Below, in pieces: positions 5,516-40,529 of a stretch of DNA of 40,529 nt. The notes beneath the pieces are model-generated. The model ran no database searches. It was not told the DNA's origin and worked only from the letters and a program-made list of their open reading frames with translations. Origin of the DNA: Candidatus Pacearchaeota archaeon (GTDB taxonomy: Archaea; Nanobdellota; Nanobdellia; Pacearchaeales; GW2011-AR1). The position numbers and the translations under genes are program-made. Location: positions 1 to 40,529 of the forward strand of contig JAFCEO010000012.1 of assembly GCA_017609085.1 (NCBI GenBank), written 5' to 3'. Position 1 is the stretch's first letter, and the number at the start of each line of letters is the position of its first letter.

Positions 5516-5523
5516 TTTATAAA
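5516..5523 (+). promoter_or_regulatory. TATA box of apgM
   Basis: TTTATAAA, centred 25.5 bases before the ATG at 5545. With no room for a leader, the mRNA is predicted to begin at or next to the start codon. Confidence 0.7.
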
Positions 5524-5544
5524 TTTATTTTACTCCAATTTAGT

Positions 5545-6807
5545 ATGAAAGGTATATTAGTTATAATAGATGGGTTAGGTGACAGACCATGTAGGCAGCT
5601 TCAAGGACGGAGTCCTTTAGAAATAGCTGAAAAGCCAAATCTTGATTATATGGCTGAGCAAGGAAGATTAGGGTACGTGTTTCCTATAGATGAGAATACT
5701 GTGCCAGAATCAGACACAGCTATTTTAGCTTTATTTGGAAATAATCCTAATGTATCTGCAAGAGGTGTTTTTGAAGCGTTGGGAGCAGGTTTAAGTTTTG
5801 AAAGAGGCGATTTAGCTTTAAGAACAAATTTCGCCACAATTGATAAAATAGAAAAAGGAAAAGTTATAGATCCAAGAGCAGGAAGAACTTTAACAACGAG
5901 AGAAGCAAAAATTTTGGCAAAAGAAGTAAATAAAATATTCCTTCCTAGAAAATTTATTTTTAAACCCACAATACAACATAGAGGTGTTTTAATTTTGAGA
6001 GGAGGATTTTCTGATAACATAACAAATACAGATCCTTTTTATCCTGTTAAAAAGAATGTCCGACCTCCTGCACCTTTTAAACTTTCTGAGCCATTGGACG
6101 AAGATGAGAATTCAGAATATACTGCCAATATGTTAAACGAATTTGTAGAGCAGTCATTTATGAAGTTAAATAATCATCCTATAAATCAAGAAAGGAGAAA
6201 GAAAGGCTTAATGCCTGCAAACATTTTGCTTACGAGAGATGGAGGAACAGAGATTCCTAAAATTAAAAAGTTAAAGAAATGGATGGCTATTCAGTACATG
6301 CCTCTGGAAATAGGGATATGTAAGGTGGCGGGAATGGAAGTTTTTTCTTTTTCTTATCCCGAAATGAAGAATTTCGATGTTTATCAAAATTTGTATGACG
6401 CCTTAAACAAAGCGGTTAAGTTTTCTATTAAGGTTTTAAAAAAACAAAAAAAGAATTTTGATTATGCATATATTCATTTTAAAGAAACAGATGTTCCTGG
6501 ACATGATAACAAGCCTCATGTTAAGAAAGATATGATTGAGCTACTTGATAGAAAGTTTTTTTCTTTTTTAAGGAAATTTGCAGAAAAAAATAATATAAGA
6601 GTAGCTGTTACTTCTGACCATTCTACTCCTTGTAATTTAAAGATGCACAGTGCAGACCCTGTTCCTTTATTATTTTTTGATCCTAGCGAAGAAGGAAAGC
6701 ACGAAAAAAGAGACAACTGTTTAGTTTTTAATGAGATACAAGCAAGGAAAGGAGGTCTCGGACGAATTTATGGAAAAGATTTTTTGAAAAAAATAGGTTT
6801 TAGTTAA
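5545..6807 (+). CDS. apgM: 2,3-bisphosphoglycerate-independent phosphoglycerate mutase, archaeal type
   Basis: A 420-aa metalloenzyme of the alkaline phosphatase superfamily that interconverts 3- and 2-phosphoglycerate in glycolysis or gluconeogenesis. Seen: N-terminal metal-site motif VIIDGLGDRP (D9), catalytic serine in PESDTA (S56), HFKETDVPGHD in the C-terminal half, and the TSDHSTPC metal motif. The length is close to the archaeal family norm (about 400-430), and no residue of these motifs is missing. It is monocistronic by spacing, with its own TATA box. It is the only clear central-carbon gene here, so it shows that lower glycolysis exists but not whether the pathway is complete. Confidence 0.95.
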   Translation: MKGILVIIDGLGDRPCRQLQGRSPLEIAEKPNLDYMAEQGRLGYVFPIDENTVPESDTAILALFGNNPNVSARGVFEALGAGLSFERGDLALRTNFATIDKIEKGKVIDPRAGRTLTTREAKILAKEVNKIFLPRKFIFKPTIQHRGVLILRGGFSDNITNTDPFYPVKKNVRPPAPFKLSEPLDEDENSEYTANMLNEFVEQSFMKLNNHPINQERRKKGLMPANILLTRDGGTEIPKIKKLKKWMAIQYMPLEIGICKVAGMEVFSFSYPEMKNFDVYQNLYDALNKAVKFSIKVLKKQKKNFDYAYIHFKETDVPGHDNKPHVKKDMIELLDRKFFSFLRKFAEKNNIRVAVTSDHSTPCNLKMHSADPVPLLFFDPSEEGKHEKRDNCLVFNEIQARKGGLGRIYGKDFLKKIGFS

Positions 6808-6906
6808 TCTTTCTTATTTCAAATTTAAAAAATAACAGGTTCCTTTATTTTTTATTACAATAATTATTAAAAACTATCCTTTTTTAATAGAGAAAGTATA
6901 ATTAAG

Positions 6907-7470
6907 ATGATAACTTATAATGATATTTATGAGGCACTGAGGAGGGAAAAGTATTCTGAACAACTTCAAAAGTTAGAAAAGAGTTTTATTCAGGAGGTTT
7001 CTGCATATTTAAAAGAGAAGAAAGCCATATCTGAAAAATCTGGAGATATATTTTCTGATGCTATTTCAAAAACAAAAAAACAATTTGAAAACGCTGTTTC
7101 TATGTTTAAAGAATTGATGCTCAGACGTAAAAAGAAATTATTAAATTTAGCTTTTATAGCTGCCGAAACAGGGATAAGTAAAAGAGATTATGAAAATATG
7201 TTAGAGTTTGAAAAGGAAGTATTTGATAAAATAATGAAAAGTATGGAAGAAGGAGATAAAAAACTCGCAAGATTACTTAATGGACAAGAGAAAGAAAAGA
7301 GGAAAAATAAATTGATTACATTTTTACAAGATACAGAAGAATTTCTTGGTTTGAATGGGGAGAAGTTAGGACCTTTCAAAAAAGGAGATATTGTAAACTT
7401 GCCGATAGAAATAGCCAATATACTCATAATTGATAATAAGGCAGAAGATGTAAATGGAGATGAAGAATAA
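6907..7470 (+). CDS. Archaeal GINS subunit, Gins51-like
   Basis: A 187-aa replication protein. The helical A domain comes first (about 1-125) with the conserved pattern FKELMLRRKKKLLNLAF (67-83). The small B domain is C-terminal (about 135-180), with GPFKKGDIVNLPIEIANILI, the usual GINS signature of hydrophobic residues around GDxVxLP. The order A then B is that of Gins51 (Sld5/Psf1 type), not Gins23. GINS bridges MCM and the RecJ-like protein at the fork. No TATA box at the standard spacing was seen, so this gene may have a leader. It is convergent with tRNA-Thr. Confidence 0.82.
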   Translation: MITYNDIYEALRREKYSEQLQKLEKSFIQEVSAYLKEKKAISEKSGDIFSDAISKTKKQFENAVSMFKELMLRRKKKLLNLAFIAAETGISKRDYENMLEFEKEVFDKIMKSMEEGDKKLARLLNGQEKEKRKNKLITFLQDTEEFLGLNGEKLGPFKKGDIVNLPIEIANILIIDNKAEDVNGDEE

Positions 7471-7497
7471 GTTTTCTTATTATTTTTTATTGCAGAA

Positions 7498-7583
7498 AGC
7501 CTCGAGAGGGATTCGAACCCCCGACCTACTGCTTACTTGTTTAATTACAAGGCAGTCGCTCTAACCACCTGAGCTATCGAGGC
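7498..7583 (-). tRNA. tRNA-Thr(UGU) with 12-nt intron
   Basis: Acceptor GCCTCGA/TCGAGGC with U73, D stem GCTC/GAGC, anticodon stem ACTGC/GCAGT and T arm with TTCGAAT. The anticodon loop CTTGTAA gives UGU. A 12-base intron (7534-7545) follows position 37. Exon CTTG pairs with intron CAAG to give the 4-bp helix between two 3-base TAA bulges, but there is no inner helix beyond it, only a short loop. U73 is usual for archaeal tRNA-Thr. Confidence 0.93.
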
Positions 7584-7606
7584 TTAAAAGTTTTAATGAG
7601 AATTAA

Positions 7607-7613
7607 TTTAAAA
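7607..7613 (-). promoter_or_regulatory. TATA box of tRNA-Thr
   Basis: The minus strand reads TTTTAAA, centred about 27 bases before the tRNA 5' end, the spacing seen at most tRNA genes here. Confidence 0.5.
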
Positions 7614-7622
7614 GCGTTTTGT

Positions 7623-8111
7623 TTATAAAATATGCTCTTCTACAGCTAATTTATAATCATGTATTTCATCTACTGAAAACCACAAGGCAAGTTCTTTTTT
7701 TGCATCTTCTTCTGTTTCAGACGCATGAACTAAATTTTTTCCTTGGTTCTTTTTTTTGGCATATTCTTTACTCACGTGCGCAAAATCGCCTCTTATTGTT
7801 CCAATATCTGCTTCTCCAGGGTAGGTTGAGCCCACAATTTTTCTAACAATTCTTACAGCATCACTTCCCTGAATCGCAAGGGCAATTACTGGTCCGCTTG
7901 TAATGTAATCAAGAAGATACTCTCTAACTTCTTTGCCATGTTTTTTTGATATATCTTCAGTATAATGCTTTTCTGCAAGGCTCCTTTCTACTCTACACAT
8001 TTTCATAGCTATTATTTTTAGACCTCGTTGTTCAAATCTTTTAATTATTTCTCCGATAAGTCCTCTTTGCACACCATCAGGTTTAATTAGAACTAAGGTT
8101 TGTTGAATCAT
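7623..8111 (-). CDS. ndk: Nucleoside diphosphate kinase
   Basis: A 162-aa enzyme that transfers the gamma-phosphate between nucleoside tri- and diphosphates through a phosphohistidine. Motifs: TLVLIKPDGVQRGLIGEII at the N-terminus (K10 binds phosphate) and NLVHASET with catalytic H129. A short Lys/Asn-rich insert (about residues 114-125) lies just before the active site, so the protein is slightly longer than the usual 150 aa. It begins 8 bases after the eS1 stop, and AGAAGGT upstream of the ATG may be a weak ribosome-binding site. It is the last gene of the eL42-eS1-ndk operon. Confidence 0.96.
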   Translation of the reverse strand: MIQQTLVLIKPDGVQRGLIGEIIKRFEQRGLKIIAMKMCRVERSLAEKHYTEDISKKHGKEVREYLLDYITSGPVIALAIQGSDAVRIVRKIVGSTYPGEADIGTIRGDFAHVSKEYAKKKNQGKNLVHASETEEDAKKELALWFSVDEIHDYKLAVEEHIL

Positions 8112-8119
8112 TTTACCTT

Positions 8120-8734
8120 CTATTTTTTTAACGTTTTCTTCTTTTTTGATTCTTCTTTTTCTTCTTCCTTTTTCACCTTTTCAACTGTAACTTTTAGCTC
8201 TTCTTGTTCTTTAACTTTTTCTAGACTTAAAATTCGGATTTCACATAAGGATAAAGGATAAATTTTTTTCAATTTTAGACTCAAGGGTTTTTGTAACCTA
8301 TTTCCAATAATGTCTGAAAAAATTTCCTCATAATTTTTATCTTTAACATAAGTTATAAGCCAGTTTTTTGCTTCCTCTCTTAAAGCTTTTCTTACAGCTC
8401 TTGATACTTTTTTTCTTGTTATGAGAAATGGTTTTATTCTAAGCCAAGCATTTTTACATTCAGCGGAAAAAGAGTCTTCTACATAATTTACTCCTTTTCT
8501 TAACATCCTTCTAATAAAAAATGGAAGAAGAATTATTTTTTTTGGCTCTGCAATAGCCTTTTCATTATCTACTTTTATTTGGAAGACTGCTTCTATGCTT
8601 TTTCCTCTAAGATTTCTTGTTAGGTCTAATTTTATTGTTTTTTTATTTAGAGATTCTATAGAGTAGGATAACAATTCTACTGAGGTATTCGTTAAGGGAA
8701 CTTCAACTTTAAAAAATTTCTTTTTTAGAGCCAT
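8120..8734 (-). CDS. Ribosomal protein eS1 (S3Ae)
   Basis: A 204-aa small-subunit protein shared by archaea and eukaryotes. Recognised from the N-terminal pattern KFFKVEVP, RNLRGKSIEAVFQIK, RRMLRKGVNYVEDSF and the C-terminal pattern IYPLSLCEIRILSLEK. The last 35 residues are a Lys/Glu-rich tail typical of low-G+C genomes. Its ATG lies one base after the stop of eL42, so translation is probably coupled. Length matches the archaeal norm of about 200. Confidence 0.92.
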   Translation of the reverse strand: MALKKKFFKVEVPLTNTSVELLSYSIESLNKKTIKLDLTRNLRGKSIEAVFQIKVDNEKAIAEPKKIILLPFFIRRMLRKGVNYVEDSFSAECKNAWLRIKPFLITRKKVSRAVRKALREEAKNWLITYVKDKNYEEIFSDIIGNRLQKPLSLKLKKIYPLSLCEIRILSLEKVKEQEELKVTVEKVKKEEEKEESKKKKTLKK

Positions 8735-8735
8735 T

Positions 8736-9065
8736 TTACTTTTTCTTTTCTTTATTTTCTATTTGGACTTTTCCAGTTCTTTTTCCTTTTTTTTGTCCAT
8801 GAGACTTCTTGCATTCTTGGCAAGTGTAAAGTATATTTGTTTTTTTAGTTGATTTAGTTTTCCTTTTCCATTTTGTTACGGCAGGTTTGGAGCCCCATTT
8901 TCCCTTATTTCCGAGACCTCGCCCTCTCCCACGTTTTTTTGCTCTTTCGATACTTCCATGTTTGAGAGCGGATCTTTTTCCTCCTGTACTTACTAGGGAA
9001 ATCTTATGTTCAGTATGTTTTTTGCAGTAAGGGCAATATCTTTTGATTTTTTTAGGAAGTTTCAT
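8736..9065 (-). CDS. rpl44e: Ribosomal protein eL42 (L44e)
   Basis: A 109-aa large-subunit protein near the E site. It has the N-terminal zinc knuckle CPYC (C11, C14) and the second pair CQEC (C82, C85), with a very basic Arg/Gly/Lys centre (AKKRGRGRGLGNKGKWGSKP). It carries a 10-15 residue Lys-rich tail beyond the family core. It is the first gene of an operon with eS1 and ndk. A TATA octamer TTTAAAAA is centred exactly 25.5 bases before the ATG. In many archaea eL42 sits with eS27 and aIF2-alpha; that partnership is not seen here. Confidence 0.95.
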   Translation of the reverse strand: MKLPKKIKRYCPYCKKHTEHKISLVSTGGKRSALKHGSIERAKKRGRGRGLGNKGKWGSKPAVTKWKRKTKSTKKTNILYTCQECKKSHGQKKGKRTGKVQIENKEKKK

Positions 9066-9086
9066 GAATTGATGAGAAAAAAAGCC

Positions 9087-9094
9087 TTTTTAAA
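9087..9094 (-). promoter_or_regulatory. TATA box of the eL42-eS1-ndk operon
   Basis: The minus strand reads TTTAAAAA, centred 25.5 bases before the ATG at 9065. Confidence 0.65.
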
Positions 9095-9096
9095 AG

Positions 9097-9330
9097 TTAT
9101 CCTGTTTTGTTTTTTAGGATATCAACCAGAGGTTGAGGAATTATTTCTTTTCCTAGACTTAATCTTATTACCGTCCATAAGATTATTATGATTATTATGT
9201 AAATGAGTATTTTACTTATCTTTATTTTTTTTCTTTTTTTAAAATTATAGCCGCAGTTTATACAATATTTATCTTTTTCGTTTAATCCTGCCCCACACTT
9301 TGGACAAAATTTTTTCTTTTTTTTAATCAT
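9097..9330 (-). CDS. Zinc-ribbon single-pass membrane protein
   Basis: A 77-aa protein. A Lys-rich start is followed by a rubredoxin-like zinc ribbon CPKC...CINC (C9, C12, C23, C26), a basic stretch, one Ile-rich membrane helix (about 40-58) and a short outer tail. This zinc-ribbon plus helix layout is common in archaea and usually annotated only as zinc-ribbon domain protein. The TATA octamer lies 24.5 bases upstream of the ATG. The role is unknown; a cytosolic ribbon held at the membrane is inferred from the positive-inside rule. Confidence 0.75.
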   Translation of the reverse strand: MIKKKKKFCPKCGAGLNEKDKYCINCGYNFKKRKKIKISKILIYIIIIIILWTVIRLSLGKEIIPQPLVDILKNKTG

Positions 9331-9543: not shown

Positions 9544-11412
9544 ATGAAAGAGAAAAGAGGTAATAGCCGTGCTCAGATTACAATTTTCATAATTATTGCA
9601 ATTTTGATTGTTTTCTTTATTGTGGGATACTTTTTATTGAAAGATAGAATTAAGTTAGGAATTCCACGCGAAGTTTTACCAGTTTATGATTACTTTATTT
9701 CTTGTGTAGAGGACGAGACAAAAACAGCAGTGTCAATAATGGAAAGTCAAGCAGGTTATCTCGAAATTCCTGAATTTGAGCCAGGGAGTGAATATATGCC
9801 TTTTTCTTCCCATTTAAATTTTTTAGGAATTGCGGTTCCTTATTGGTATTATATTTCTGGAAATGGTATAGCAAAAGACCAAATGCCAAATAAAGAAAAG
9901 ATGGAATTGCAGCTAAAAAATTATTTAAAAGAAAAAATTGCAGAATGTTCTTTTGAGGAATTTGAGAGACAAGGCTTTATTATAAAGAGAAAGGAGCCAG
10001 AAGTTAATGTAGATATAAAAGATACCAAGATAAATATTGTAGTAGAGATGCCTTTATCGATATCTTTCGGTTCTGTTACTATGAAACAAACAGAACATAA
10101 AATTTCTGTTAATTCAAAACTTGGTAAATTTTATGATATAGCAAGAAAAATTTATGATAAAGAAAAAGCAGAAATGTTTTTAGAAAATTACGGCGTAGAT
10201 GTTTTAAGGTTGTACGCTCCTGTCGACGGGGTAGAGATTACATGTTCTCCAAAAATTTGGTTAAAAGACAACATTAAAGAAGAGTTAAAGAATGCGTTAG
10301 AGGCAAATGTTCAAGCGATTAAAATTAAAGGAGATTACTATTCTTTGACTTCTCCGGAGAACAAATATTTTATTCAAGATTTGGGGGAGCGTATTGAGGA
10401 GAATGTTAATTTTTTATACTCAAAACAATGGCCTACGAAAATAGAAATTTATTCAGATGATCCTATGATGGCAGAGCCAGTGGGATTGCAGGAGGGTCTT
10501 GGAATTTTAGGTTTCTGCTTTGTTCCTTATCATTTTGTTTATGATATGGCTTATCCTGTTCTGGTGCAAATTTATGATAATGAAGAGATGTTTCAATTTC
10601 CCTTGGGTGTTGTTATAGATAAAAATAAGCCATTGGAGGGAGAAAATGTTGAGTCTTTACAGGGAATAGAGCCAGAATTATGTCAACATAAATTAACGAC
10701 TATTGATGTCTATACTTATAATACAAAATTAGAGCCTGTCGAAGCTTCTATTAGTTTTAAGTGTTTTGGTACAAGTTGCGATATAGGCGAAACTAAGATA
10801 GAACGAGGGGATGCTTATTTGTCTGCTTTGTTCCCCCAATGTGTAAATGGTTTTATTATTGCTAAAGCCGATGGCTATTCTACAAAGAAATATATGGTCT
10901 CTACTGTTGAGAGCACTACTGTCGATATAGTTCTTGATAAAGAATATTCTTTAGATTTAGAAGTAGAAGTTAATGGCAAAAAATTAAGTGGAGAGAGAGC
11001 TGTTATCTATTTTGAGGGTGCAAAAAATTTTGTTATAGCTTATCCTGAGCAGAAAGAAGTGAAATTAAGTGAAGGGCAATATAATATTACAGCTTATATT
11101 TATAAAAATTCTACACTTTCTCTTGGAGGATTTACAACTCAAAAATGTATTGAGGTTCCGGAAACAGGCATATTCGGAATATTTGGTTCAACTAAAGAAA
11201 AATGCTTTAGTATGAATATTCCTGCACAAACAATTTCTTTCGCTATTTCAGGAGGAGGTAAAACAAGTTATTATTTTGTAGAGTCCGAATTGTCTGATCA
11301 TAAAAAATTAAAAATTAAAGCAGAAAATTTGCCTCAACCAACATCAATAGAACAATTGCAAGATAATTATAATTTATTGGAAGAGAAGACTTTATGGTTA
11401 GAACTTATATGA
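9544..11412 (+). CDS. Large secreted pilin-like anchor protein of locus A
   Basis: A 622-aa protein. The N-terminus is basic and then hydrophobic (about 10-33) with motif RAQITIFIIIA, which looks like a class III (prepilin-type) signal with Q at +1 and T at +3; processing by an archaeal prepilin peptidase is inference. Residues about 35-240 match the whole ectodomain of the 272-aa protein of locus B: both have a YIxxC[IV]ED-like start after the helix, a helical block with EEF/INECL-type cysteines, then beta strands and a SxxIAxYEARYGD/ARKIYDKEKAEMF region. The C-terminal third (about 390-600) is beta-rich with a PEGA/CnaB-like segment (FIIAKADGYSTKKYMVS). Cysteines are few and probably paired. 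Its stop overlaps the next start as ATGA. Confidence 0.8.
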   Translation: MKEKRGNSRAQITIFIIIAILIVFFIVGYFLLKDRIKLGIPREVLPVYDYFISCVEDETKTAVSIMESQAGYLEIPEFEPGSEYMPFSSHLNFLGIAVPYWYYISGNGIAKDQMPNKEKMELQLKNYLKEKIAECSFEEFERQGFIIKRKEPEVNVDIKDTKINIVVEMPLSISFGSVTMKQTEHKISVNSKLGKFYDIARKIYDKEKAEMFLENYGVDVLRLYAPVDGVEITCSPKIWLKDNIKEELKNALEANVQAIKIKGDYYSLTSPENKYFIQDLGERIEENVNFLYSKQWPTKIEIYSDDPMMAEPVGLQEGLGILGFCFVPYHFVYDMAYPVLVQIYDNEEMFQFPLGVVIDKNKPLEGENVESLQGIEPELCQHKLTTIDVYTYNTKLEPVEASISFKCFGTSCDIGETKIERGDAYLSALFPQCVNGFIIAKADGYSTKKYMVSTVESTTVDIVLDKEYSLDLEVEVNGKKLSGERAVIYFEGAKNFVIAYPEQKEVKLSEGQYNITAYIYKNSTLSLGGFTTQKCIEVPETGIFGIFGSTKEKCFSMNIPAQTISFAISGGGKTSYYFVESELSDHKKLKIKAENLPQPTSIEQLQDNYNLLEEKTLWLELI

Positions 11413-14400
11413 AAATGAGAAAAAGAAAAGAAATAATAAAAGTGAAGAAGTTGCCTTTAGCAATAGTTCTAATTTTATTTTCTGTAATTTTATTAGCAGG
11501 TGTTAAGGCTTATAGGGGGACTAGTTTTTCTCCAGCCTCCCAATATTATAGGCCGAGTTTTCAGCGATTTTATACCTCACAGGAAATAAGAACTTACTGG
11601 CCGATTTTTGGAAAAGAAGAATGCAAGGCAAGGCAAGATTTTATTTTATCGATAAGGCCTGGAGGTTGTCAACCTGCTGTTGTTAGATCTGATCTTTTAG
11701 AAGAGCAAAATGTTCCTGTTTTCTGCAGATTAGATGCTATAAAAATTAATCCTTTAATCGACATTAAAGCAATAAAATCAATTTCTTTTAAAGGTTCTTA
11801 TCCTAAAGAAGTTTCTGGAATAGGGTTTCATCCTGCAAGAGCAGCTATAAGAAGCTACAATACTCTTCTTGGCTCACCACTGATGAACGATGTCGGATAT
11901 TTGGTTATTGTTTTAAAAAGAATGCCTGAAGACAAAATGCCTGAGTGGGTAGGAGGAAATTTAACAGCGAGGATCTGGTATGACATGGACGAAGCTTTCG
12001 GCGTTGGGAAGGCAGAATTCTTCTTACCTATTTTGTCAGATAAAGAATGGGAAACTAATTATGAAGATTATGGTTTTTGGAGAGGAAAAGGATTCTTGAG
12101 AGCGAACTGGATAGAGCCAGATAAAGCTTCCTTGTCTGTTTATAGAGATGCCTATCATAAGGAATCTACTATAACATTAGAGAAAGGCAAGACATCTAGA
12201 GACATATATCTCGGCGGTTTTTATTGCAGGGCCGCTTTACAATTAATTTTGAAGGATTTAGTATATCCAGAAACCAGAGCAAAAATAGTGGTGGAGAAAG
12301 ATGGCGAAGAAGATGTTTTATGGCTTTATGAGGGGAGCCGTTTCTTAGATGGGAAATGCAGAATTAAAGAAATAGAACCTCTTTCTTTAGGGGGAGGCTC
12401 TGTTACTATAAGGTGTGGAAGTAATGAATTTATGTTGAGACTCGGGATGGCAAATAGAGTTAATCTAAAAATTGATAATGTTGAACAGGAAGTCGAAGTA
12501 GGGGATATAGTTCCAGTAAAAACAGACTATACTTATTTAATCTATATTGGAGAGGTTTCTCAAAAGATAGTGAGAGAAGAAGAGAAAAGAATATTTATTG
12601 TTCTTGTAAATTCGACTAACAATATTGAAGAAAAACAAGGTTTAACAAGAAGAATAAATCTTGCTCTTGAAAGTATAGCCCAGAGGGAAAAAACAAAAGA
12701 AAACTTTGAAAATAAAGCAGAAAAGTCTATAAAAAATATCCCTGGCATTAACGAAGCCGATGTTATTTTTTACGGGGAAAAAGGGGAGAAATTTGAAGAG
12801 GTTGAATTTATAGGTCCTTCCGGAAGTGTCGATAAATTTTATGATATTAGAAAAGAAGACGCTAAAATTTTAGACGAGTATTTTAACAATGCAATTCATG
12901 AATACAGGAAAGTTGTTCAACTTTATCCTTTAGAAAAAGAAATTCAAGATGTAGAGAATATGGAAACATATGGCGAGGAGGCTTTAACAAATGCAGTTAG
13001 GTTGGCTGAAGATCTTGGAAAACAAAAAACAAAACAAGAGTTGTTAAGAGAAGAAATAAGCAATTATCCTAATACAAAAATAGCTAAAACAGCAGAGAAA
13101 GAGCTCTCTAAAACATTAAAATATGATGAAGGGGAGGCTATAGAAACAACTCCTGTCGGTTATGATTATTATACTTTTCATCTTAAAGATATTGTAAAGC
13201 CAACACAAGAAGAGATTAGTGCATCTATTTCTGTTAAAGCCGAAGGTGTAGATGAAAAAGGAATTTACACAATTGGAGATTACATTTACTCTCCAAAAAA
13301 ACAAGATAGAGGGTCCGGACAGGAAGAGTTTATCCAATTAAAATCTTTAGATGAAAAATATGCCACAATAAAATATTCTGTTGATGAGAAAAAAGACGGA
13401 AAATGGGTTAATACAGGTGCTAAATTAAAAAAAATAAAAATTAAAGAATTAACTACTTTAGGAAGATTTTCTCTTTATGTTTCTGATGTAAAACTGCAAC
13501 GATATGCTAATGTTGTTGTTAAGCCGAGAATTATAGGGCCTTATACAGAAACTAATCTCTCTTTTAAAATCGGAATAGAGAAAAGAGGAATAAAGCTTAG
13601 CCCTGAGAAAACTAACGAGATGATTAATAATTTAAATGAATCTATAAAAAAATGGGAGAAGATTTCAAATAATCTGAAAAAAGTTGTAAGAGGGTGGAAA
13701 GGTGTTTGTTATGCGACATCTGCTATTCTTATGGTTAAAAACCTGCTGGATAATTTTTCTGGAAAAAGTTTGGCAAGACAAAAAGTTATGAGAGGGGTAG
13801 ATGGAAAAGGAGGTTGGATAAATAAATGTAAAGATTTGGTGGCGAGTGGGAAAGAAGGCTACGCAAGTTTGGACGATTGTTTAAGAAAAAACGGTGCCGA
13901 GATAGAAAAAGATGTTAACGCAGCTCACGAAACAATTAAAAAAATTAATGAGGTGATGAAAAGTACAGAAAAAGTTACAAAAGAAACGATTTTTGGAGAA
14001 AAGATCGTAGATACAGAAAAATCTTTTTACGAGTTTGTGAAAGAATTTGAAAAAGAAAACGGGAAAGATATTATAGAACTTAAAAAAGATGGAGAAACTA
14101 TAAGTTTTAATGTTTCTGATTTAATCAAAGATTACAAAACAGGATACAAAGAGGGATTGTATACTTTTTCGGATGTAAGGGAATGGAAATTTTATACTGA
14201 TATATTAAAAAAAGATATCTCTCCCGAGCTTAAAGAATCTTATAAAGAAAAACTTTACGATATTTATAAAGAAATAAATAAGAAAAGAGAAAGTTATGAA
14301 TTTGCTTCTTCATATAACGAAGACTTGAAAAAAACAGGGCTTAATTTAAATGTTAAAGGTCCATATTTAGAAGTCGGAGGACGGGCAGATTTTTGGGATG

Positions 14401-31657: not shown

Positions 31658-32335
31658 ATGGCAAAAAGGAACAAAGCTGAAAAAAGAGAGAAAGTAAAAA
31701 CCTCTAAAAAGAAGGCTCCTGCTAAGGCATCTAAAAAAAAGAGTAAAAAAACAACAAAAATTACAAAGATAGCTAAAATAAAAGCTGTTTTTGATGGGGA
31801 ATTTGTTTCTTCAAATAAAAAAGAAGCATTTTCTCTTTACTCTTCCAGCAGATTTGGCGAAAAAAAATCTGGCAAGATTTTATATTCAATTTTTGAAGCT
31901 CTCTATTTGCTTGAAAAAAATAAAATAGAAATTAAGTTTGGAAAAAAGAAATTAAAATTTGATCAACTTTTAGAAATAGCACGAGAAAAAGATCTAAATA
32001 TAAGAACAAAATATATTGTTTTTAGAGATATGCGGGACAGAGGATTTATAGTTAAGACAGCGTTAAAATTCGGAGCTGAATTTAGAGTTTATGACCGGGG
32101 GATAAAACCGGGAGAAGACCATGCTAGGTGGATTCTTTTTCCTGTTTCAGAAACATCTAATTTAACTTGGCATGATTTTTCAGCTAAAAACAGAGTAGCC
32201 CATTCTACAAAAAAGAGTCTACTAATAGGAATTGTAGATGAAGAAGAATTAAATTCTACTTTGTTATTATTAATCCGACAACAATTGTTACTATTATTAA
32301 TAAGATCCCATTTAGTGTTTCTTTTTCAAGAATAA
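31658..32335 (+). CDS. endA: tRNA-splicing endonuclease EndA with aberrant C-terminus
   Basis: A 225-aa endonuclease that cuts tRNA introns at bulge-helix-bulge sites. Residues 1-40 are a Lys/Ala-rich tail. The catalytic domain has YIVFRDMRDRGFIVKTALKFG, then Y145 (VYDRG), H155 (GEDHARW) and K185/K186 (AHSTKKSLLIGIVD), the usual Tyr-His-Lys triad. After D194-E-E-E197 the family normally ends with a short strand like VTYYEV; here the frame continues as a Leu-rich stretch (LLLLIRQQLLLLLIRS). It overlaps the convergent membrane-protein gene by 80 bases. One base earlier in frame (-1), from 32248, the sequence reads IKFYFVII, which looks like the missing strand. A sequencing or real frameshift is possible. 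Substrates are in this window: four intron-containing tRNAs. Confidence 0.9.
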   Translation: MAKRNKAEKREKVKTSKKKAPAKASKKKSKKTTKITKIAKIKAVFDGEFVSSNKKEAFSLYSSSRFGEKKSGKILYSIFEALYLLEKNKIEIKFGKKKLKFDQLLEIAREKDLNIRTKYIVFRDMRDRGFIVKTALKFGAEFRVYDRGIKPGEDHARWILFPVSETSNLTWHDFSAKNRVAHSTKKSLLIGIVDEEELNSTLLLLIRQQLLLLLIRSHLVFLFQE

Positions 32336-32762
32336 AATGTTTTATACTTAACAAGAAACTATTTGCTCCCGATTCGTCTGCTCCAGGCAAATATGCTTGT
32401 GTGTTTGGAAAGGTATAGAAGAAAGCGCTTATTAAAATTAAAGAAAATAAAGTTATGAAAACAAGGGAGAGAGGCTTAGTAAATTTTGTCCAGTTATCTT
32501 TTATTAAAAATACAATTATTAACATAAAGAAAAATGAGATTGTCAAAAGAACAGTAAACCAAGGGGTTATGTTTATGACATAGTTTCTTACTGAAGAAAA
32601 GGATAAGAAGATTATAGATAAAATAAGACTTATGATTGTATTTATAGAGGCGGTTTCTCCCAAAATTTTTGTTTTTGTAAGGATTGCGTAAATGAGAACA
32701 AAGACTAAGACAAATCCAAATATTGGAAGTCCTTCACTTAGCCATGCAAACTCAAGTGCCAT
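32256..32762 (-). CDS. Five-helix membrane protein, convergent with endA
   Basis: A 168-aa hydrophobic protein with about five membrane segments (near 12-29, 40-57, 66-87, 96-116, 148-166). Polar residues are few; an acidic loop (PGADESGAN) lies before the last helix. The first residues MALEFAWLSEG suggest no signal peptide. I do not recognise the family. The last 26 codons lie on the strand opposite the end of endA. A TATA box is centred about 31.5 bases before the ATG, giving a leader of roughly 6 bases. Confidence 0.7.
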   Translation of the reverse strand: MALEFAWLSEGLPIFGFVLVFVLIYAILTKTKILGETASINTIISLILSIIFLSFSSVRNYVINITPWFTVLLTISFFFMLIIVFLIKDNWTKFTKPLSLVFITLFSLILISAFFYTFPNTQAYLPGADESGANSFLLSIKHFILEKETLNGILLIIVTIVVGLIITK

Positions 32763-33019: not shown

Positions 33020-33415
33020 ATGAAAAGAAAAAAAGGATGGTTAAGGATAATAGAAGCATTTATAGCAGTTTTAATAGTAACTTCTGTTCTTACAATTTTA
33101 GTAACAAGACAGCAGAGACAACAAAACGAAGTGCAGCAGATATATGAAATGCAAAGAAATATTTTGAAACAAATAAGTTTAAACGAAACTTTAAGAAGCG
33201 AAATTTTGCAAGAGAAAAAGGACAGTACAGAAAATTTTATTAGAGAGGTTCTTCCTTTTTACTGGAACTTTACAATAAAAATTTGTGAGGTTAGCGAGTT
33301 TTGTGGAATGCCTTTTTCTGTTGATAAAGATGTTTATGCTGATGAAATTTTAATAACGAGCAATTTAACTTATTATAATCCTCGAAAATTGAAGTTTTTT
33401 ATTTGGGAAAAATAA
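33020..33415 (+). CDS. Pilin-like single-pass secreted protein
   Basis: A 131-aa protein that begins MKRKKGWLRIIEAFIAVLIV: Lys-rich, G, then a hydrophobic helix with an early acidic residue (E12). This is the layout of type IV prepilins, with likely cleavage after G6. The remainder is a helical part (RQQRQQNEVQQIYEMQ) and a C-terminal domain with one Cys pair (CEVSEFC) and sequons NET, NFT and NLT. No TATA box at the standard distance was seen. It is convergent with locus B, stops 27 bases apart. It may be an extra subunit of that apparatus (inference). Confidence 0.7.
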   Translation: MKRKKGWLRIIEAFIAVLIVTSVLTILVTRQQRQQNEVQQIYEMQRNILKQISLNETLRSEILQEKKDSTENFIREVLPFYWNFTIKICEVSEFCGMPFSVDKDVYADEILITSNLTYYNPRKLKFFIWEK

Positions 33416-33442: not shown

Positions 33443-35731
33443 CTATTCTTTTTGCTTTATGATATCATATGGTCTTATAATCATCGAACATTCGTTTGAT
33501 AAAGGAATATTTCCATATTCATCAGAGCATCTTATATAGTAAGTATTGTCAGTTTTCCATTCAGCAAAATGCTCTGTTTGATTTGCATAAGGCATATCTA
33601 TGCCGTCTTCAAATTTAAAGTTGCAATCTTGGCTGCTATATCTGCACTCAGACTTTTCATTCGTAACTATTTTTAATAATTCATCTTCTTCGTATGCTCT
33701 TACTATAATAGGTGCTTCTTTGTCTATTTCTATATTAAACTCTGTAAAGTTATCATCTCTGTTTCCTCCTAAATCCACACACTTGATATAATACTTGTAT
33801 TTTCCTTTTTTCAAGTCCAATCGTTGTTTGTGTAAAGAAGAGCCAGTTTCATAAAATTCAATCCAATCTCCTTCATTGCCTGTTTCACTATAATAACAAA
33901 TAGCTTCCCCGTTTTTGTAGCCGTTGGATGTTTCTACTTCTAAATTTACAGAAACAACGTCTGTCGCTCCTTTAATAGTTCCATTTGGTTTTACTTCTAT
34001 TATATTCAAAGTTTCTGTTCCTATTATGGTAAAAGGATAACTTTGCATATTTACATTTCTTTTAGATTCATTTGCCCAGGGCTGGTCTTTACATCTAAAG
34101 TAGAATTTGTTTTCCTGCCTGCTTTTAATTCCAGTTAAGGTAGTTTTACACGTATAAACGAGATTATTATTCATTTCCCATACATTCTCAGAACAGGACA
34201 TTTCATATTCCATATTTTCATAACTTCTGTCTTCTCTACTCCATCTGCACTCAGCCGGCTCATTGACATAAACTTCTAACTCTAGAGTACTTTGGTTAAA
34301 TTTAATCGGCATGTTATTGGCTACGTTTGTTCCTTCAATTTTTGGAGGTGTAGTATCAGGACCTTTTTCTACACAGAATCTTATTGCAAACTCATCTACA
34401 TTTTCGTTTCCATTAGCATCTTTACATCTTACATATAGAGTGTAAGTTCCGTCGTTTTTTAATTCAGGAGCTGCAGCATTTATCGAATCTGGACTTGGTA
34501 ACGACAATTTTTGAGAATGATTATATAAAAATAAATTAGTTTCACCAAACCAGAAATTCATATTATCAAATTTTAAAGTATGGTTGTAATCTATTTTACA
34601 TTGAGCTGGTTCATCTGTTAATATTCCGAATTTTAAAGGTGTGAAAGCTTTGATGCAGCCATCTTTTGTTTTTTCTCCTATTATTTTTACTCCTCTTGCT
34701 GGAGGTCTAATAGTTTTATCTGGTTCATACCTGTAACCTTCGGTTAAGACATCTTCCCAGACACTTATTTTTGGAGAAGTCGTGTCACGAGGGTTAACCC
34801 AATCACATTTTTCATTTTCAGTTCCAGGATTTAATAACTGGCAGGCTTGTCCTAGACTTTTACATCTATACTCAGAGCAAGAATGAAGTTCAGAGTTGCA
34901 TTTTTCGCAATCATTTCCTCCAATAGAACCAGTTGGAGGTTGCCAAGGTTCGCAGGTAAATGTAACAATTTTTTTTGATTCTCTTTTATAGAGAAGAGCG
35001 AAAGTGATTATACTTACAGCTAAGCCAGCACCAAATGCTCCTCCTGGAAAAGATTCTGTGAATTTTGTTAGTGTTTTAATCTCTTTATTTGTGGCTAAAA
35101 ATTTCCAAGTAAAAGAGCCTGTGGCTAATGCGGATGATAAAGCCTTTTGTTTTTGCTTATCCATTCCGGTAAAACTTCCAATCATCCGTCCAAGAAGATA
35201 AGCTCCTCCTGCCCATTGTACGCCTGTAAGAGCAGCATCCATAAAGGTGCCTTTTGCTACTCCGAAGAGTTTTGGTAGAAGGGATTGTGATTCGGGTTTT
35301 ACTACTTTAATAGCTCCATCATTAATTGCTTTTGTTAATTCTTTTTCATTCAGAATATAAGCTTTCCCACTTTGTTTTATAATTACTCCTTCTTCAGATT
35401 TTTCAATAATTGCTATAGAAGGATCTATTTCAACTCCAGATGTTAATCTAAAAGTTTTTTTAATATCATATTTTAGTATCTCTTTTGTAGCTTCTACACT
35501 TCCCCCATAGCCTGAAGGTATTGGTGTAGCACTTTCCTCTGTACCTCTTTCTGCTAATTGTTTCTTTATTTCTTCAATATCTTTCTGCAATCTTTTTATT
35601 GTGGCTTTTCCTTTAACAGCTCCGACTAAACTAGATTCATTTATAATAAAACAAAATGCGAAAATCCCAACTATTAAAATTAAAATTTGTATTATTGCTT
35701 GTATTTGGATTTTTCCTCTTTTTTTCACCAT
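33443..35731 (-). CDS. Secreted Ig-like repeat protein, second half of split module, locus B
   Basis: A 762-aa protein with an N-terminal membrane helix (about 12-31) after MVKKRGKIQIQ, a short coiled coil (TIKRLQKDIEEIKKQLAE) and two further hydrophobic segments (near 170-190 and 226-246). The outer part starts with a Cys-rich knot (CEPWQPPTG...CEKC...CSEYRCKSLGQAC), followed by Ig-like repeats with the pattern [TN][DN]EP[AS]xC and YxxRCKDxxGN (last copies TNEKSECRY, YIRCSDEYGN). It matches the C-terminal 500 residues of the 38331-40529 gene, same order and motifs. That copy is fused to the Cys-rich domain; here the domain is the preceding gene. It has its own TATA box 24.5 bases upstream. 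Confidence 0.85.
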   Translation of the reverse strand: MVKKRGKIQIQAIIQILILIVGIFAFCFIINESSLVGAVKGKATIKRLQKDIEEIKKQLAERGTEESATPIPSGYGGSVEATKEILKYDIKKTFRLTSGVEIDPSIAIIEKSEEGVIIKQSGKAYILNEKELTKAINDGAIKVVKPESQSLLPKLFGVAKGTFMDAALTGVQWAGGAYLLGRMIGSFTGMDKQKQKALSSALATGSFTWKFLATNKEIKTLTKFTESFPGGAFGAGLAVSIITFALLYKRESKKIVTFTCEPWQPPTGSIGGNDCEKCNSELHSCSEYRCKSLGQACQLLNPGTENEKCDWVNPRDTTSPKISVWEDVLTEGYRYEPDKTIRPPARGVKIIGEKTKDGCIKAFTPLKFGILTDEPAQCKIDYNHTLKFDNMNFWFGETNLFLYNHSQKLSLPSPDSINAAAPELKNDGTYTLYVRCKDANGNENVDEFAIRFCVEKGPDTTPPKIEGTNVANNMPIKFNQSTLELEVYVNEPAECRWSREDRSYENMEYEMSCSENVWEMNNNLVYTCKTTLTGIKSRQENKFYFRCKDQPWANESKRNVNMQSYPFTIIGTETLNIIEVKPNGTIKGATDVVSVNLEVETSNGYKNGEAICYYSETGNEGDWIEFYETGSSLHKQRLDLKKGKYKYYIKCVDLGGNRDDNFTEFNIEIDKEAPIIVRAYEEDELLKIVTNEKSECRYSSQDCNFKFEDGIDMPYANQTEHFAEWKTDNTYYIRCSDEYGNIPLSNECSMIIRPYDIIKQKE

Positions 35732-35751
35732 AATTTTTTAATTTTTTTACA

Positions 35752-35759
35752 TTTATAAA
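35752..35759 (-). promoter_or_regulatory. TATA box of the 762-aa Ig-like gene
   Basis: TTTATAAA on the minus strand, centred about 24.5 bases before the ATG at 35731. It lies in the 76-base gap to the previous gene, so the two halves can be expressed separately. Confidence 0.55.
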
Positions 35760-35807
35760 TCTTGTTATTTGTTACTATTTTATAATAATTAATAGCTCTT
35801 TCCATTT

Positions 35808-37442
35808 TTATACTCCTGCCCGACTTTTAATTGAGCTTATTATTGCTTGACTAAGAGTTTTTTTCTTTCCAGCTATTTTCCATTCTGCTCCGTCCTGTGT
35901 GAACTTGCCTTGCCAATTAACATAGCCACCACAATCTCCTAAACTCGTACAGATTTTATTCATTTTTTCTGCCCAGCTTTCTTCTAAACATTCGCAATTT
36001 TCAATACACTTTTTACTTCCAAATAAACCTTTTTTATATTTAACAATACATTGAGCATTTGCAAGAGAACAGATTCCTTCTGCATCTCCTTCTTCCCAAA
36101 ACTTAAGTCCAGGAGGATAATTTGGCAAACATGCACCTTCGCCACCTTCAGCCAATCCTGTAACTCCTCCTTGCTGTCCGGTGTTTCCTTCCTCTGTTCT
36201 AATAAAATGAACTCCTTCTATCCAGAAACAATCTCTTTTGTCTGTATTTTCACAATCATCTTTTTCTGTTTGCTTTATACAGTCTTGCCATCTATTCACA
36301 CGACATGCAGCTTCCTGGAAAATTCCAGATGAAGTTTCTATTTTTCCTTCTATACAGATTTCTTGTCTGAAATCTGCACATGGTTCTACTATCTCTTCAC
36401 CTGCAACACAAATATGTCTAAAGTGTCTACTTCCTACAGGATCTTTTCCTTCTCCGATTGCTCCATCATATTCGCACCAACTCTCTCCATGTTTATGATT
36501 TTTTCCATCTGAAGTATCATAACAATTTAGATCTTGACATATATATTCTCCATACTTTGGTTTAGACTCTCTTTCTGCTTTTTTACAAATACTTCCCAAA
36601 TAATAATCGCAATTTCCACAAGTTTTGCTGTTTGCATTATTTTTTCCATAACCGCAACTTTCACTTTTATCTATGATCTTTTTCCAATAAGACTTATCAT
36701 TAACTTTAGAAGCATCATAAATGTTAGCAGGATTTCCACAACTGTCTCTGAAATAAACTTCATCTTTTCCTTCAACACACATTGTGTCATGTGTTGGTCC
36801 ACAATTTGTTGCTAACTCTTCTGCCGAGCATAAATAATCTTTATAAAATTCGGGCTTTGTTAAATTGCCTGTGGATTTTATTTTCATGCATTCTTCTCTT
36901 GTTGTAAATTTACAAGTTCTTGTAAAATCCTCCTCATAAACGCAGGCTCCTTTGTCTTGGGCTTGTGTTACAGCAATACATTCTAATTCATTATCTATAT
37001 TTCTTCTAAAGTCAGTTTCTAGACCATAAAAACTACTTAATTTTTTACATCTTGTTAATGTTACAAAAGCCGCTTGATTATCCAAGACACAACATCCCAG
37101 CTCACATTGAGGAATATCACATTCAGGAGAGTCTGCCCATACACCTCCTTTTTCATTACAAACCCTTTGAGGTGTATTTTCCATACATAATCCTTCACTA
37201 GATTCATAACAACACCCTAACTTACAAAAAGAAGTTGCATCACAACTTGTAGGCGTTTTTCTAAAATTCTCATTACATTCTTCTTCTGGAGCATTTTGGC
37301 ACCATGCTCCACTCGTTGTTTTCTCGCAGCAATAATCTCCTTGCTGACCTGAGATTAAAATAAAAGATAATAAAAGAGAAATTACAATTATGACTGTACA
37401 AATTAATATTTTTGATTTAATCAATTTGTTTTTCATTTTCAT
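35808..37442 (-). CDS. Secreted Cys-rich protein, first half of split module, locus B
   Basis: A 544-aa protein, start ATG 37442 overlapping the previous TGA as ATGA; a TTG at 37463 is less likely. Signal or anchor helix about 11-32. The ectodomain holds about 45 cysteines (around 9%), with repeated C-x2-GCC and C-x2-C units (CKLGCCYE, CELGCCVL, CGNCDYYLGSICKK). Its last part, CTSLGDCGGYVNWQGKFTQDG, matches the part of the right-edge gene just before that gene's Ig-like region, CTSLGDCGSYVNYIGE. So it is the Cys-rich half of the same module. Probably disulfide- or metal-stabilised outside the cell. Unknown family. Confidence 0.85.
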   Translation of the reverse strand: MKMKNKLIKSKILICTVIIVISLLLSFILISGQQGDYCCEKTTSGAWCQNAPEEECNENFRKTPTSCDATSFCKLGCCYESSEGLCMENTPQRVCNEKGGVWADSPECDIPQCELGCCVLDNQAAFVTLTRCKKLSSFYGLETDFRRNIDNELECIAVTQAQDKGACVYEEDFTRTCKFTTREECMKIKSTGNLTKPEFYKDYLCSAEELATNCGPTHDTMCVEGKDEVYFRDSCGNPANIYDASKVNDKSYWKKIIDKSESCGYGKNNANSKTCGNCDYYLGSICKKAERESKPKYGEYICQDLNCYDTSDGKNHKHGESWCEYDGAIGEGKDPVGSRHFRHICVAGEEIVEPCADFRQEICIEGKIETSSGIFQEAACRVNRWQDCIKQTEKDDCENTDKRDCFWIEGVHFIRTEEGNTGQQGGVTGLAEGGEGACLPNYPPGLKFWEEGDAEGICSLANAQCIVKYKKGLFGSKKCIENCECLEESWAEKMNKICTSLGDCGGYVNWQGKFTQDGAEWKIAGKKKTLSQAIISSIKSRAGV

Positions 37443-38257
37443 CCAATATATCCTGAAGGCCAAGCTAAACTTCTACTTGCAAATTGGAATTTTTCATTTG
37501 TTAATTTATTTGTTAAGATGTAAACAGTAGAACCTTCTGATTGCTTCTTTTTTTCAACTCTAATATCAGGATAATATAACATATATGTTAATGTGTCAGA
37601 ATCTCCATATCTTGCTTCATAATTTGCGATACTTGAAGATAACATAATTAAATCATAGAGCTGACTTGGAATATTGACTTTAAATTTGTCAAAGCTTTCT
37701 GTTCCTTCTTTTGTTACGGTCATACGAACATTTACTGTTACTCCAATGTAATTTGGAACTATGGTGGTTTTAATATTCATTTTCCCTAAAGAAACAGAAG
37801 AGCCTTTTTTTTCGAGTTCTGATTTTAAGTTATTTAGACACTCGTTGACTCTCGGTTCAATAAAAGAGGTTATTTCTTCTTCAATATCTTGCTTCAAAAA
37901 TGGTTTTTGCATCATACACCTCTTATAATATTCGTTTGTATAACAAATATAATCTATTTTATTTCCCTGATAAAGTATATAATTTTCTGGGTTAAGAGTT
38001 CCGCCTTGCATTTCTAATTTTTTTAAAACTTCTTTTGTTGAATCTTCAATACATCTTTCAATATAATCTGCTGGAACAGGTCCTGCAATTATTGTTTTCA
38101 ATTTTGGATAAATTAAAATTAAAAGTATAGCAATTATAACTATGGCTAAAATTATAAAAATTGTAAGCTGCGCATGTTTTGAATTTAGGAAACTACCTCT
38201 TCTATACAAAAATTCAAGATTTGAGGTAGTATTTTTATTTTTTCTCTTTTTTTTCAT
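37439..38257 (-). CDS. Pilin-like secreted anchor protein of locus B
   Basis: A 272-aa protein. A basic start is followed by HAQLTIFIILA and a long hydrophobic helix (about 29-51), the same motif as the 622-aa protein of locus A (RAQITIFIIIA). Q after A suggests prepilin-type processing. The ectodomain has helices with four or five cysteines (IERCIED, ICYTNEYYKRC, VNECLNNL), then beta strands VRMTVTKEG, and SSIANYEARYGD. It aligns over its length with residues about 10-240 of the locus A protein, with no Ig-like tail. The stop overlaps the next start as ATGA. The TATA box is about 56.5 bases upstream, so a 31-base leader with a mini-ORF is predicted. Confidence 0.82.
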   Translation of the reverse strand: MKKKRKNKNTTSNLEFLYRRGSFLNSKHAQLTIFIILAIVIIAILLILIYPKLKTIIAGPVPADYIERCIEDSTKEVLKKLEMQGGTLNPENYILYQGNKIDYICYTNEYYKRCMMQKPFLKQDIEEEITSFIEPRVNECLNNLKSELEKKGSSVSLGKMNIKTTIVPNYIGVTVNVRMTVTKEGTESFDKFKVNIPSQLYDLIMLSSSIANYEARYGDSDTLTYMLYYPDIRVEKKKQSEGSTVYILTNKLTNEKFQFASRSLAWPSGYIG

Positions 38258-38283
38258 CTTGACTTTTCATCTCTTTTTTTCAT
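38254..38283 (-). other. Leader mini-ORF before the locus B pilin-like gene
   Basis: ATG at 38283 opens nine codons (MKKRDEKSR) and stops at a TGA that overlaps the pilin-like ATG as ATGA. The predicted transcript starts about 5 bases before it. Translation is not shown; it may couple or attenuate. Confidence 0.3.
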
Positions 38284-38309
38284 GTTCCTTATAAGAGAAG
38301 AATTTCACG

Positions 38310-38317
38310 TTTATAAA
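38310..38317 (-). promoter_or_regulatory. TATA box in locus B before the pilin-like gene
   Basis: TTTATAAA on the minus strand, 56.5 bases before the ATG at 38257. Confidence 0.5.
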
Positions 38318-38330
38318 TTTTTAGATGATA

Positions 38331-40529
38331 TTACACGGCTAATCTGACGATTATAGAGCATTTTCCAGGCTGATTTCCATATTTATCTTTACATTTTACA
38401 TAATATACAGATTCTACGCTCTGTTTTACTGTGTGCTCCTTTCCTTCTCCAGACATTAAATTTGCCTCAGTTGAATTTTCTATATCGAAATTACATTTAT
38501 TATTCGTTAAAGAATATGCACAAATAGCAGGTTCGTCTGTCATTATAATTAATTCTCCATCATAGTAAGCTCTTGTTATTATAGGTGAAGAAGTGTCAAT
38601 TTTAACATTAAATTCGGTATAATTTTCAGCTATGTTTCCTGCTGCATCTTGACATTTAATATAAATTTTATAATGTCCTCTTGTTATTTGTGAAAATACT
38701 TGTTGGTGGTAATTGGAATCTGTATCAAAAAATCTTATATAGTTATATCCATCAAGACTATACTCGCACGTTGCTTTTCCGTTTTCAGCTCCACCAGAAG
38801 TAAAAACTTCTAAGTTTACAGTTAAAGGTTCAAATCCTCCTATAATATCTTCTGAAGGCAAGACCTTATCAATTTTCAATTCAGATTCACTTCTCTTTAA
38901 TTCATAAATATAACTTTCTCCCATTATATTTCTACTTTCATTATCCTCAGGAAGCCAAGGTTGGTCTTTACACTTAATATAGAATTTGTTATTTTCAAAA
39001 ACATTTAAGGTAGTGTTACATTGCCAGCCATATAACTCATAATCTTCTATATCTATTTGACAATTCATTAGATTCTCCATATCTTCATAGTCTTTATTAT
39101 TGATATCATATTTACAAGAAGCAGGTTCATTTGTCCAAATCTGTAAATCTTGTTTTGTCTGATTATAAGCAAGATAGGCTCCATTTGTCGGCTCTGTTCT
39201 TGTAATTCTTGGAGCAGTTAAATCCGGTCCCGGCTTTACACAAGTTCTAATTACATAAGGGTTAGTATTTGCGATTCCATTTACACTTTTACATTTGACA
39301 TAAAAATTAATTTCACCCAACTCTTTTATCTGTTTATCTGTTAAATTATATTGGTTTTTAAATGCAGAAGGGCTTGGTAAGTTTAGTGAAGTTGTGTGAT
39401 TTGTTAAATAAAGATTAGAGCCACCAAAAAATTCTTCCATTTCGTCATAACTCTTTAAAGGATCGTCTGAAATTTTACACTGACTAGGTTTGTCTGTTTC
39501 TATTCCAAATGTAACTTGAGTAAATTCAGGAATACATCCACCTCCTTGTTCTGCAACTTCGAATCCGTCATCTTTAATATTATAATACTCATAACCTTCT
39601 GTAATTACACCATAAAGAGGCTCTATCTTTGGAGAAGTAACGTCATTAGGACTGTTATCTATGCACATTTGATGTTCAGTTCCTTTATTTATAAGTTCGC
39701 AAGTTTGTCCCAATGATTTACATCGATACTCGGAACAAGGAACTCCTAACGGATTATCAGTATTACATTTATTACAATTCTTTCCTCCTGCTGGAGGTTG
39801 CCATGGGAGGCATTTAAATTCAACAATTTTTTTCTTTGTTTTACCTATTCCGAGAACTTTAAGCACACTTGCTACAATTAAGAGAACAACAACATAAGGT
39901 CCTAAAATTCTTCCCAATAGTTTAAAGTCGAAACCCAAAAGTGCATCCATTAGTCCTGATGTTGCTCCTCCCGAAAAAGCAGTGGAAGTAGCATGTAATG
40001 TTAAACTTAAACCAACATAACTTAAGATTTTAGAGGCCTCTCCATTTAATCCAAGAGCCTTACTAATTATTGAAGAAGTTGCTAGAATAGCTCCTGCTGC
40101 TGCTAACGCATTACCAAATGCTTGAAGACTTGGATTTCCAGCGACTGTGACTAAATCTCTTTGACTTAAGGGAAGACTTGCAAATTCTGGAGATGTTGTA
40201 CCTAATTGTGCTCCAGCAGTTGAAACTAAAGAAGTCGCGAAAACTTTATTTACTAATAATCCAACTCCCATCATTCCCAAGCCAGCTCCAACATAACTTT
40301 TTCCTCTTTTTTCTTCATACTTTTCACTTTCAAGAGTAGTCCAGCTTCCTAAGAAACTGAGGTTGCCTGGTTCAGCTTTTTGTTCCGGTTTCGCCTCTGC
40401 ATAGGCCTTTAATTTGTTTAAAAAAGTATTAGACAATTTTGGAGCTCCTTTTACAGAATAACCATCCTCTGTAATTTCTCCTATATAATTGACATAACTG
40501 CCACAATCTCCTAAACTCGTACATAAGTC
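38331..40529 (-). CDS. Fused Cys-rich/Ig-like surface protein, N-terminus beyond right edge
   Basis: The frame is open from base 40529 to the stop at 38331 (732 codons seen). A TTG at 40436 is inside the frame and is not a needed start, because upstream codons continue without a stop and read CTSLGDCGSYVNYIGE, the match to the end of the 544-aa protein. So this gene holds in one chain what 35808-37442 and 33443-35731 encode in two. After the junction come hydrophobic stretches (several membrane-type helices between about 80 and 235), then the Cys knot CLPWQPPAGG...CSEYRCKSLGQTC, then Ig-like repeats (TDKPSQCKI, TNEPASCKY, TDEPAICAY; YVKCKDKYGN). First seen gene of locus B in transcription order. 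Confidence 0.85.
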   Translation of the reverse strand, partial: DLCTSLGDCGSYVNYIGEITEDGYSVKGAPKLSNTFLNKLKAYAEAKPEQKAEPGNLSFLGSWTTLESEKYEEKRGKSYVGAGLGMMGVGLLVNKVFATSLVSTAGAQLGTTSPEFASLPLSQRDLVTVAGNPSLQAFGNALAAAGAILATSSIISKALGLNGEASKILSYVGLSLTLHATSTAFSGGATSGLMDALLGFDFKLLGRILGPYVVVLLIVASVLKVLGIGKTKKKIVEFKCLPWQPPAGGKNCNKCNTDNPLGVPCSEYRCKSLGQTCELINKGTEHQMCIDNSPNDVTSPKIEPLYGVITEGYEYYNIKDDGFEVAEQGGGCIPEFTQVTFGIETDKPSQCKISDDPLKSYDEMEEFFGGSNLYLTNHTTSLNLPSPSAFKNQYNLTDKQIKELGEINFYVKCKSVNGIANTNPYVIRTCVKPGPDLTAPRITRTEPTNGAYLAYNQTKQDLQIWTNEPASCKYDINNKDYEDMENLMNCQIDIEDYELYGWQCNTTLNVFENNKFYIKCKDQPWLPEDNESRNIMGESYIYELKRSESELKIDKVLPSEDIIGGFEPLTVNLEVFTSGGAENGKATCEYSLDGYNYIRFFDTDSNYHQQVFSQITRGHYKIYIKCQDAAGNIAENYTEFNVKIDTSSPIITRAYYDGELIIMTDEPAICAYSLTNNKCNFDIENSTEANLMSGEGKEHTVKQSVESVYYVKCKDKYGNQPGKCSIIVRLAV

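Follow-up and report, generated by a model that had tools for sequence, protein, structure and literature searches.

A duplicated gene module of Nanoarchaeia that may encode a membrane-anchored cell-contact complex

The stretch of DNA analyzed here (the window, 40,529 nucleotides) is the entire contig C5 of a 583-kb Candidatus Pacearchaeota genome that is 88% complete. Its last part, locus B (positions 33443 to 40529), consists of four minus-strand genes, and the question is which cell-surface structure these genes build and what that structure does. Our preferred answer, to which we give a probability of about 0.55 on the basis of sequence comparison and structure models, is that locus B codes for the central parts of a membrane-anchored contact or adhesion complex of the Nanoarchaeia, in Pacearchaeota as well as in other families. 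The features discussed below are listed in Table 1.

Table 1. Features of locus B, its neighbor, and the paralogous locus A in the window
Feature	Position	Strand	Remarks
Fused Cys-rich/hydrophobic/Ig protein, C-terminal 732 aa	38331..40529	-	Open at contig end; 5' part on C13, 11124-12223
Anchor B, 272 aa, one-span, prepilin-like N-terminus	37439..38257	-	AlphaFold2 model; anchor tree ("downstream" clade)
Secreted Cys-rich protein, 544 aa, 46 Cys	35808..37442	-	Homologous to the N-part of the fused protein
Ig-repeat protein, 762 aa, hydrophobic segments and Ig domains	33443..35731	-	Homologous to the C-part of the fused protein
T5 homologue (small accessory gene)	33020..33415	+	Convergent neighbor; module membership uncertain
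Locus A anchor, 622 aa	9544..11412	+	Paralogue of anchors A and B via N-terminal ~190 aa
Locus A giant secreted protein, 1881 aa	11394..17039	+	Partner of the locus A anchor

The initial annotation had described four genes on one strand that fill this interval and encode exported or membrane-spanning, disulfide-rich proteins. All four are present as described, with a cysteine content of 4.1% compared with 1.2% elsewhere in the window, but the first of them is cut by an assembly break. As the window is the whole of contig C5, the fused gene is truncated at position 40529, and its first 366 codons form the end of contig C13 (up to position 12223), where the PCNA gene and a second anchor gene (anchor A, 40% identical to anchor B) precede it. 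Comparison with a full-length relative shows that about 95 residues are absent between the two pieces. Because both contigs break within one fused gene, they can probably be joined end to end across a gap of about 280 bases. A quartet of small genes that recurs with the module (q6, q5, q7, and q10), a regulator gene, and an S-layer-like gene of this genome are found on contig C27. A five-span membrane protein of unrecognized family (positions 32256-32762) overlaps the end of a tRNA endonuclease gene.

The locus is built from a repeated unit, as had been proposed. The Cys-rich protein aligns with the N-terminal half of the fused protein, the part on C13 (37% identity, E = 1e-81), and the Ig protein aligns with its C-terminal part (39% identity over 578 aa, E = 2e-122). 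The 23-residue N-terminus of the Ig protein is 52% identical to the N-terminus of the fused protein, so that the anchor segment has been kept. Since the fused protein thus equals the Cys-rich protein plus the Ig protein, anchor A with the fused gene and anchor B with the Cys-rich and Ig genes represent one unit in duplicate, split in the second copy. In locus L048, two fused genes stand in tandem (positions 5449-9324 and 10336-13956) with their first ~31 residues identical and the remainder different, which reflects either gene conversion or an assembly effect.

Among 30 relatives, the Cys-rich protein shows 43 to 65% identity and about 40 invariant cysteines, and the number of cysteines is near constant; the invariant pattern is of the disulfide type. 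In the structure model of the C-terminal part of the fused protein, hydrophobic helices predicted at low confidence (pLDDT of about 30 to 73) are followed by Ig-like domains, mostly with pLDDT above 90. The hydrophobic segments are rich in glycine and alanine and lie between two exported domains, and in the fused protein of the window lysines come after the last hydrophobic helix. A Foldseek search of the Ig domains against the PDB returned Ig chains with E values down to 7e-12, including cell-adhesion molecules, a bacterial adhesin, and the grappling hook of Aureispira. As modeled, these proteins have the features of Ig-chain surface adhesins, namely export and tandem Ig-like domains. Scans of the four locus B proteins against Pfam and NCBIfam gave only subthreshold Ig-type matches, and PHROGs gave no match for the module proteins, which does not support a phage-derived structure. 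The idea that all Ig and fused proteins carry class III signals was dropped, as their N-termini are mixed and some look like ordinary Sec signals.

We compared the gene order in 73 loci obtained from a genome scan. With a profile of its C-terminal part, the fused protein was detected in 195 of 378 genomes of the class, representing 130 of 247 genera. In Pacearchaeota, the recurring order is primase, PCNA, anchor A, fused gene, anchor B, Cys-rich gene, Ig gene, q6, q5, q7, q10, regulator, and S-layer protein, and it is found in relatives with mostly 30 to 50% sequence identity. The primase and PCNA were confirmed by Pfam, the S-layer protein by PF05124 in a relative, and the regulator by HVO_A0114. 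In 49 of the 51 loci with room for it, an anchor gene is among the three genes upstream of the fused gene, and in 50 of 57 one lies downstream, which excludes chance. The four q proteins are small and pilin-like, with prepilin-like N-termini; of the 30 loci with a q5 gene, 24 have the full quartet in the order q6-q5-q7-q10. In the more remote families of the class only one unit is present, consisting of anchor, fused gene, q6, q5, q7, q10, and S-layer protein. The S-layer gene next to the module fits a role in the envelope.

Several loci of the comparison have features of their own. Small gene pairs are inserted between module genes in L040 (8322-8953 and 10412-11033) and L050 (8713-9325 and 11544-12160); they belong to recurring clusters 11 and 12 and by eye look like the nucleotidyltransferase/HEPN type. 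Module pieces also occur in records labeled Dojkabacteria (L140) and Aenigmarchaeum (L149), on contigs that are probably misbinned.

The anchors resemble pilins at the N-terminus only. The AlphaFold2 model of anchor B has a mean pLDDT of 92 and consists of a long N-terminal helix followed by helices and strands. Foldseek found no match to this model in the PDB at E ≤ 0.001, with no solved pilin matched, and no convincing match in BFVD. The model therefore lacks the type IV pilin fold, a long helix packed on a beta sheet that matches solved pilins, and we take it as a predicted new fold without known counterpart. PDB searches with sequence profiles of the anchor, the C-terminal part of the fused protein, q5, q6, q7, and q10 gave no match below E = 0.02. 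The N-termini of the anchors mostly read K, K/R, G/A/S, with G/A/S at position -1 in 102 of 103 sequences, Q at +1 in all 103, and F rather than E at +5 in 100 of 103. The motif looks like a prepilin site minus the usual glutamate, and because of the F at +5, cleavage of the anchors by prepilin peptidase stays an expectation drawn from the motif. In a maximum-likelihood tree, whose bootstrap values are not fully settled, the upstream and downstream anchors form two groups with few exceptions; the locus A anchors and the single anchors found in distant families fall into separate supported clades. The split into upstream and downstream groups places the duplication early, close to the base of the Pacearchaeota. 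In this tree, the anchors of RBG_13_36_9 are nearest to those of this genome.

A paralogue of the anchor had also been claimed for locus A, and the comparison bears this out. The locus A anchor is 28% identical to anchor B over its N-terminal ~190 aa (E = 6e-7), and the anchor profile matches the locus A anchors of 20 relatives with E values of 1e-18 to 1e-29. In all 20 relatives, an anchor of 600 to 700 aa stands directly before a giant protein of about 1,600 to 3,000 aa. The giants, seen in L202 to L221, have a common core and swapped C-terminal domains, always behind the paralogous anchor. A Pfam domain was recognized at the C-terminus of 10 of the 20; in six of these it is an SLT transglycosylase, Amidase_3, or M23 peptidase domain, and the other four have OmpA, a GDSL lipase with a 3D domain, a transglutaminase-like domain, or ankyrin repeats. 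None of these C-terminal domains was recognized in the giant of the window. The swapped C-termini look like exchangeable effectors aimed mainly at bacterial walls. The giants are probably the family fam00969 of Castelle et al. (2021, PMC8204110), described there as proteins of up to 3,000 aa that carry a murein transglycosylase domain, with attachment to bacteria as the suggested role.

The prepilin-like N-termini make it necessary to ask whether the module belongs to a pilus. The module loci contain no secretion ATPase (FlaI/PilB, PF00437) and no platform protein (TadC/FlaJ, PF00482), and the pilus locus of this genome, which has genes for a FlaI-like ATPase and two TadC proteins, is separate, on contig C17. 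No member of an archaellin or fla family was found among the module proteins, a flagellin match being at chance level (E = 0.74). Five genomes have the fused protein without a TadC match: G059, assembled as a single contig; G089, which is 100% complete; and G199, G244, and G265, which are about 89 to 93% complete. All five keep the prepilin peptidase, and in G265 we read a full single unit directly, adjoining the S-layer gene. Three genomes of lower completeness (G315, G352, and G382) also have the fused protein without a TadC match, and G185 and G202, with weak TadC matches only, were excluded from the count. Across these 10 TadC-poor genomes, the peptidase is found in eight, the two without it being 82% and 78% complete. 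As genomes without TadC keep the fused protein, the module is independent of a detectable TadC platform. Retention of the peptidase is suggestive of module processing, but this sign is weakened by G083, in which the peptidase is present, the fused protein is absent, and the TadC match is only weak; the peptidase thus has other clients. We conclude that the module is neither an archaellum nor an ordinary type IV pilus.

The initial annotation had gone on to propose a defined and undescribed cell-surface machine of these four genes, with a pilin-like anchor and perhaps a role in host attachment. The conserved neighborhood supports such a machine well, and the profile and Foldseek searches linked it to no archaellum or described pilus. 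Its parts reach beyond the four genes, however, to the four small q proteins and the second anchor, and "pilin-like" holds for the N-terminus of the anchor but not for its predicted fold. The operon is undescribed in the literature that we searched, and the module proteins are not named by any family library or solved structure searched. For host attachment, the adhesin-like Ig chains and the paralogous anchor beside the giants provide backing: we infer adhesion from fold class and gene context, and attachment to other cells is probable because a copy of the anchor adjoins giants, some of which carry wall-cutting domains in relatives.

If so, the complex could work as follows. The anchors and the four q proteins would be exported by Sec, and prepilin peptidase would probably trim them at the site [KR][KR][GAS] followed by Q, just before the Q, to leave one-helix membrane anchors. 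Together, anchors and q proteins would keep the large Cys-rich protein in place at the S-layer in one complex, from which a disulfide-locked head and an Ig stalk would project outward through the S-layer and bind another cell. A pilus motor would not be needed. The anchor of locus A would have the same role for the giant protein and, as giants with a peptidoglycan hydrolase occur in some relatives, the partner cell, or prey, may in many cases be bacterial. A wider picture, which we hold only tentatively, is a contact machine with two arms, in which the motor-free locus B complex grips a neighbor and the locus A anchor presents a giant with exchangeable, often peptidoglycan-cutting C-termini, for a life on or from bacteria.

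The same proteins might instead be the minor pilins and large tip adhesin of a type IV pilus encoded elsewhere and assembled by FlaI and TadC. In 16 of 16 genomes tested there are PF00437 matches and in 15 of 16 TadC, the anchors and q proteins start like prepilins, and q6 has a weak match to the type IV pilin 8pfb (E = 0.029). Two pilus-locus genes also adjoin module parts in this genome, on two contigs: T5 and T4 (the latter at L076 4904-5623), both small genes with counterparts elsewhere behind TadC in the pilus locus. Neither was seen near the module in other loci. Persistence of a module without its own ATPase or platform where TadC has no match, in the complete G089 and the single-contig G059, and an anchor fold unmatched to solved pilins make this arrangement unlikely, though still a serious candidate.

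A role without any cell contact, in which the set would tie the S-layer to the membrane or form a second protein coat, we judge distinctly improbable. It would account for the S-layer-like gene and regulator as constant neighbors, for the near-constant cysteine number, and for a conservation of the Cys-rich protein (43 to 65%) above that expected of a fast-changing host-recognition head. Long Ig chains, however, resemble adhesins, the paralogous anchor is paired with giants of which some have hydrolase domains, and, as about half of the genomes of the class are without the fused protein, it is not a universal part of the envelope. Very unlikely, finally, is a pore formed or inserted by the hydrophobic helices of the fused protein for delivery of locus A or other proteins to a neighbor. 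The Gly/Ala-rich segments between two exported domains, and giants encoded in the same genomes whose C-terminal domains can be swapped, would suit such a channel, but the module lacks an ATPase and resembles no secretion system, and the hydrophobic part is the one modeled at low confidence.

A contact complex of this kind would bear on how DPANN archaea hold their partners, in a group in which most lineage-specific surface families are without function. The module offers one concrete, conserved gene set with a predicted new fold and an anatomy of head, stalk, and anchor, which occurs in more than 100 genera of the class. The link between anchor and giants, of which some carry peptidoglycan-cutting domains, suggests bacteria as partners of archaea that are usually regarded as symbionts of other archaea. 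Should the module be a pilus tip complex, the gene system would be less new than it now appears.

Parts of this system have touched earlier work. In the sections of Castelle et al. available to us (PMC8204110), DPANN module 98 and fam00969 are families common to Pacearchaeota and Woesearchaeota, mostly without assigned function, and those sections do not describe the operon, the anchor, the duplication, or the replacement of SLT by amidase or M23 domains. The nanotubes of Microcaldus ARM-1 (PMC11329633) are likewise a DPANN cell-contact structure at the S-layer, but they come from the host rather than the symbiont and have no sequence link to locus B. Saccharibacteria pili (PMC12206443) are also surface structures, linked to host binding in an ultrasmall episymbiont, but they are bacterial and true type IV pili. 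Ig-chain adhesins, such as GhpA of Aureispira and the ice-binding adhesin, share with locus B surface chains of Ig-like domains, a match of fold class only (identity of ~10%, low TM-score); the Cys-rich head and the hydrophobic segment are, as far as known, not shared with them. Cys-rich and S-layer-like proteins also occur in some archaeal pilus loci (Makarova et al. 2016, PMC4858521). With the archaeal type IV pilus and the archaellum, the module has in common one-helix subunits, a prepilin-like N-terminus, and a prepilin peptidase in the genome. It differs from them in that locus B is without FlaI and TadC and occurs without detectable TadC, in an anchor fold unmatched to solved pilins, and in that giant Cys-rich/Ig proteins are its main product.
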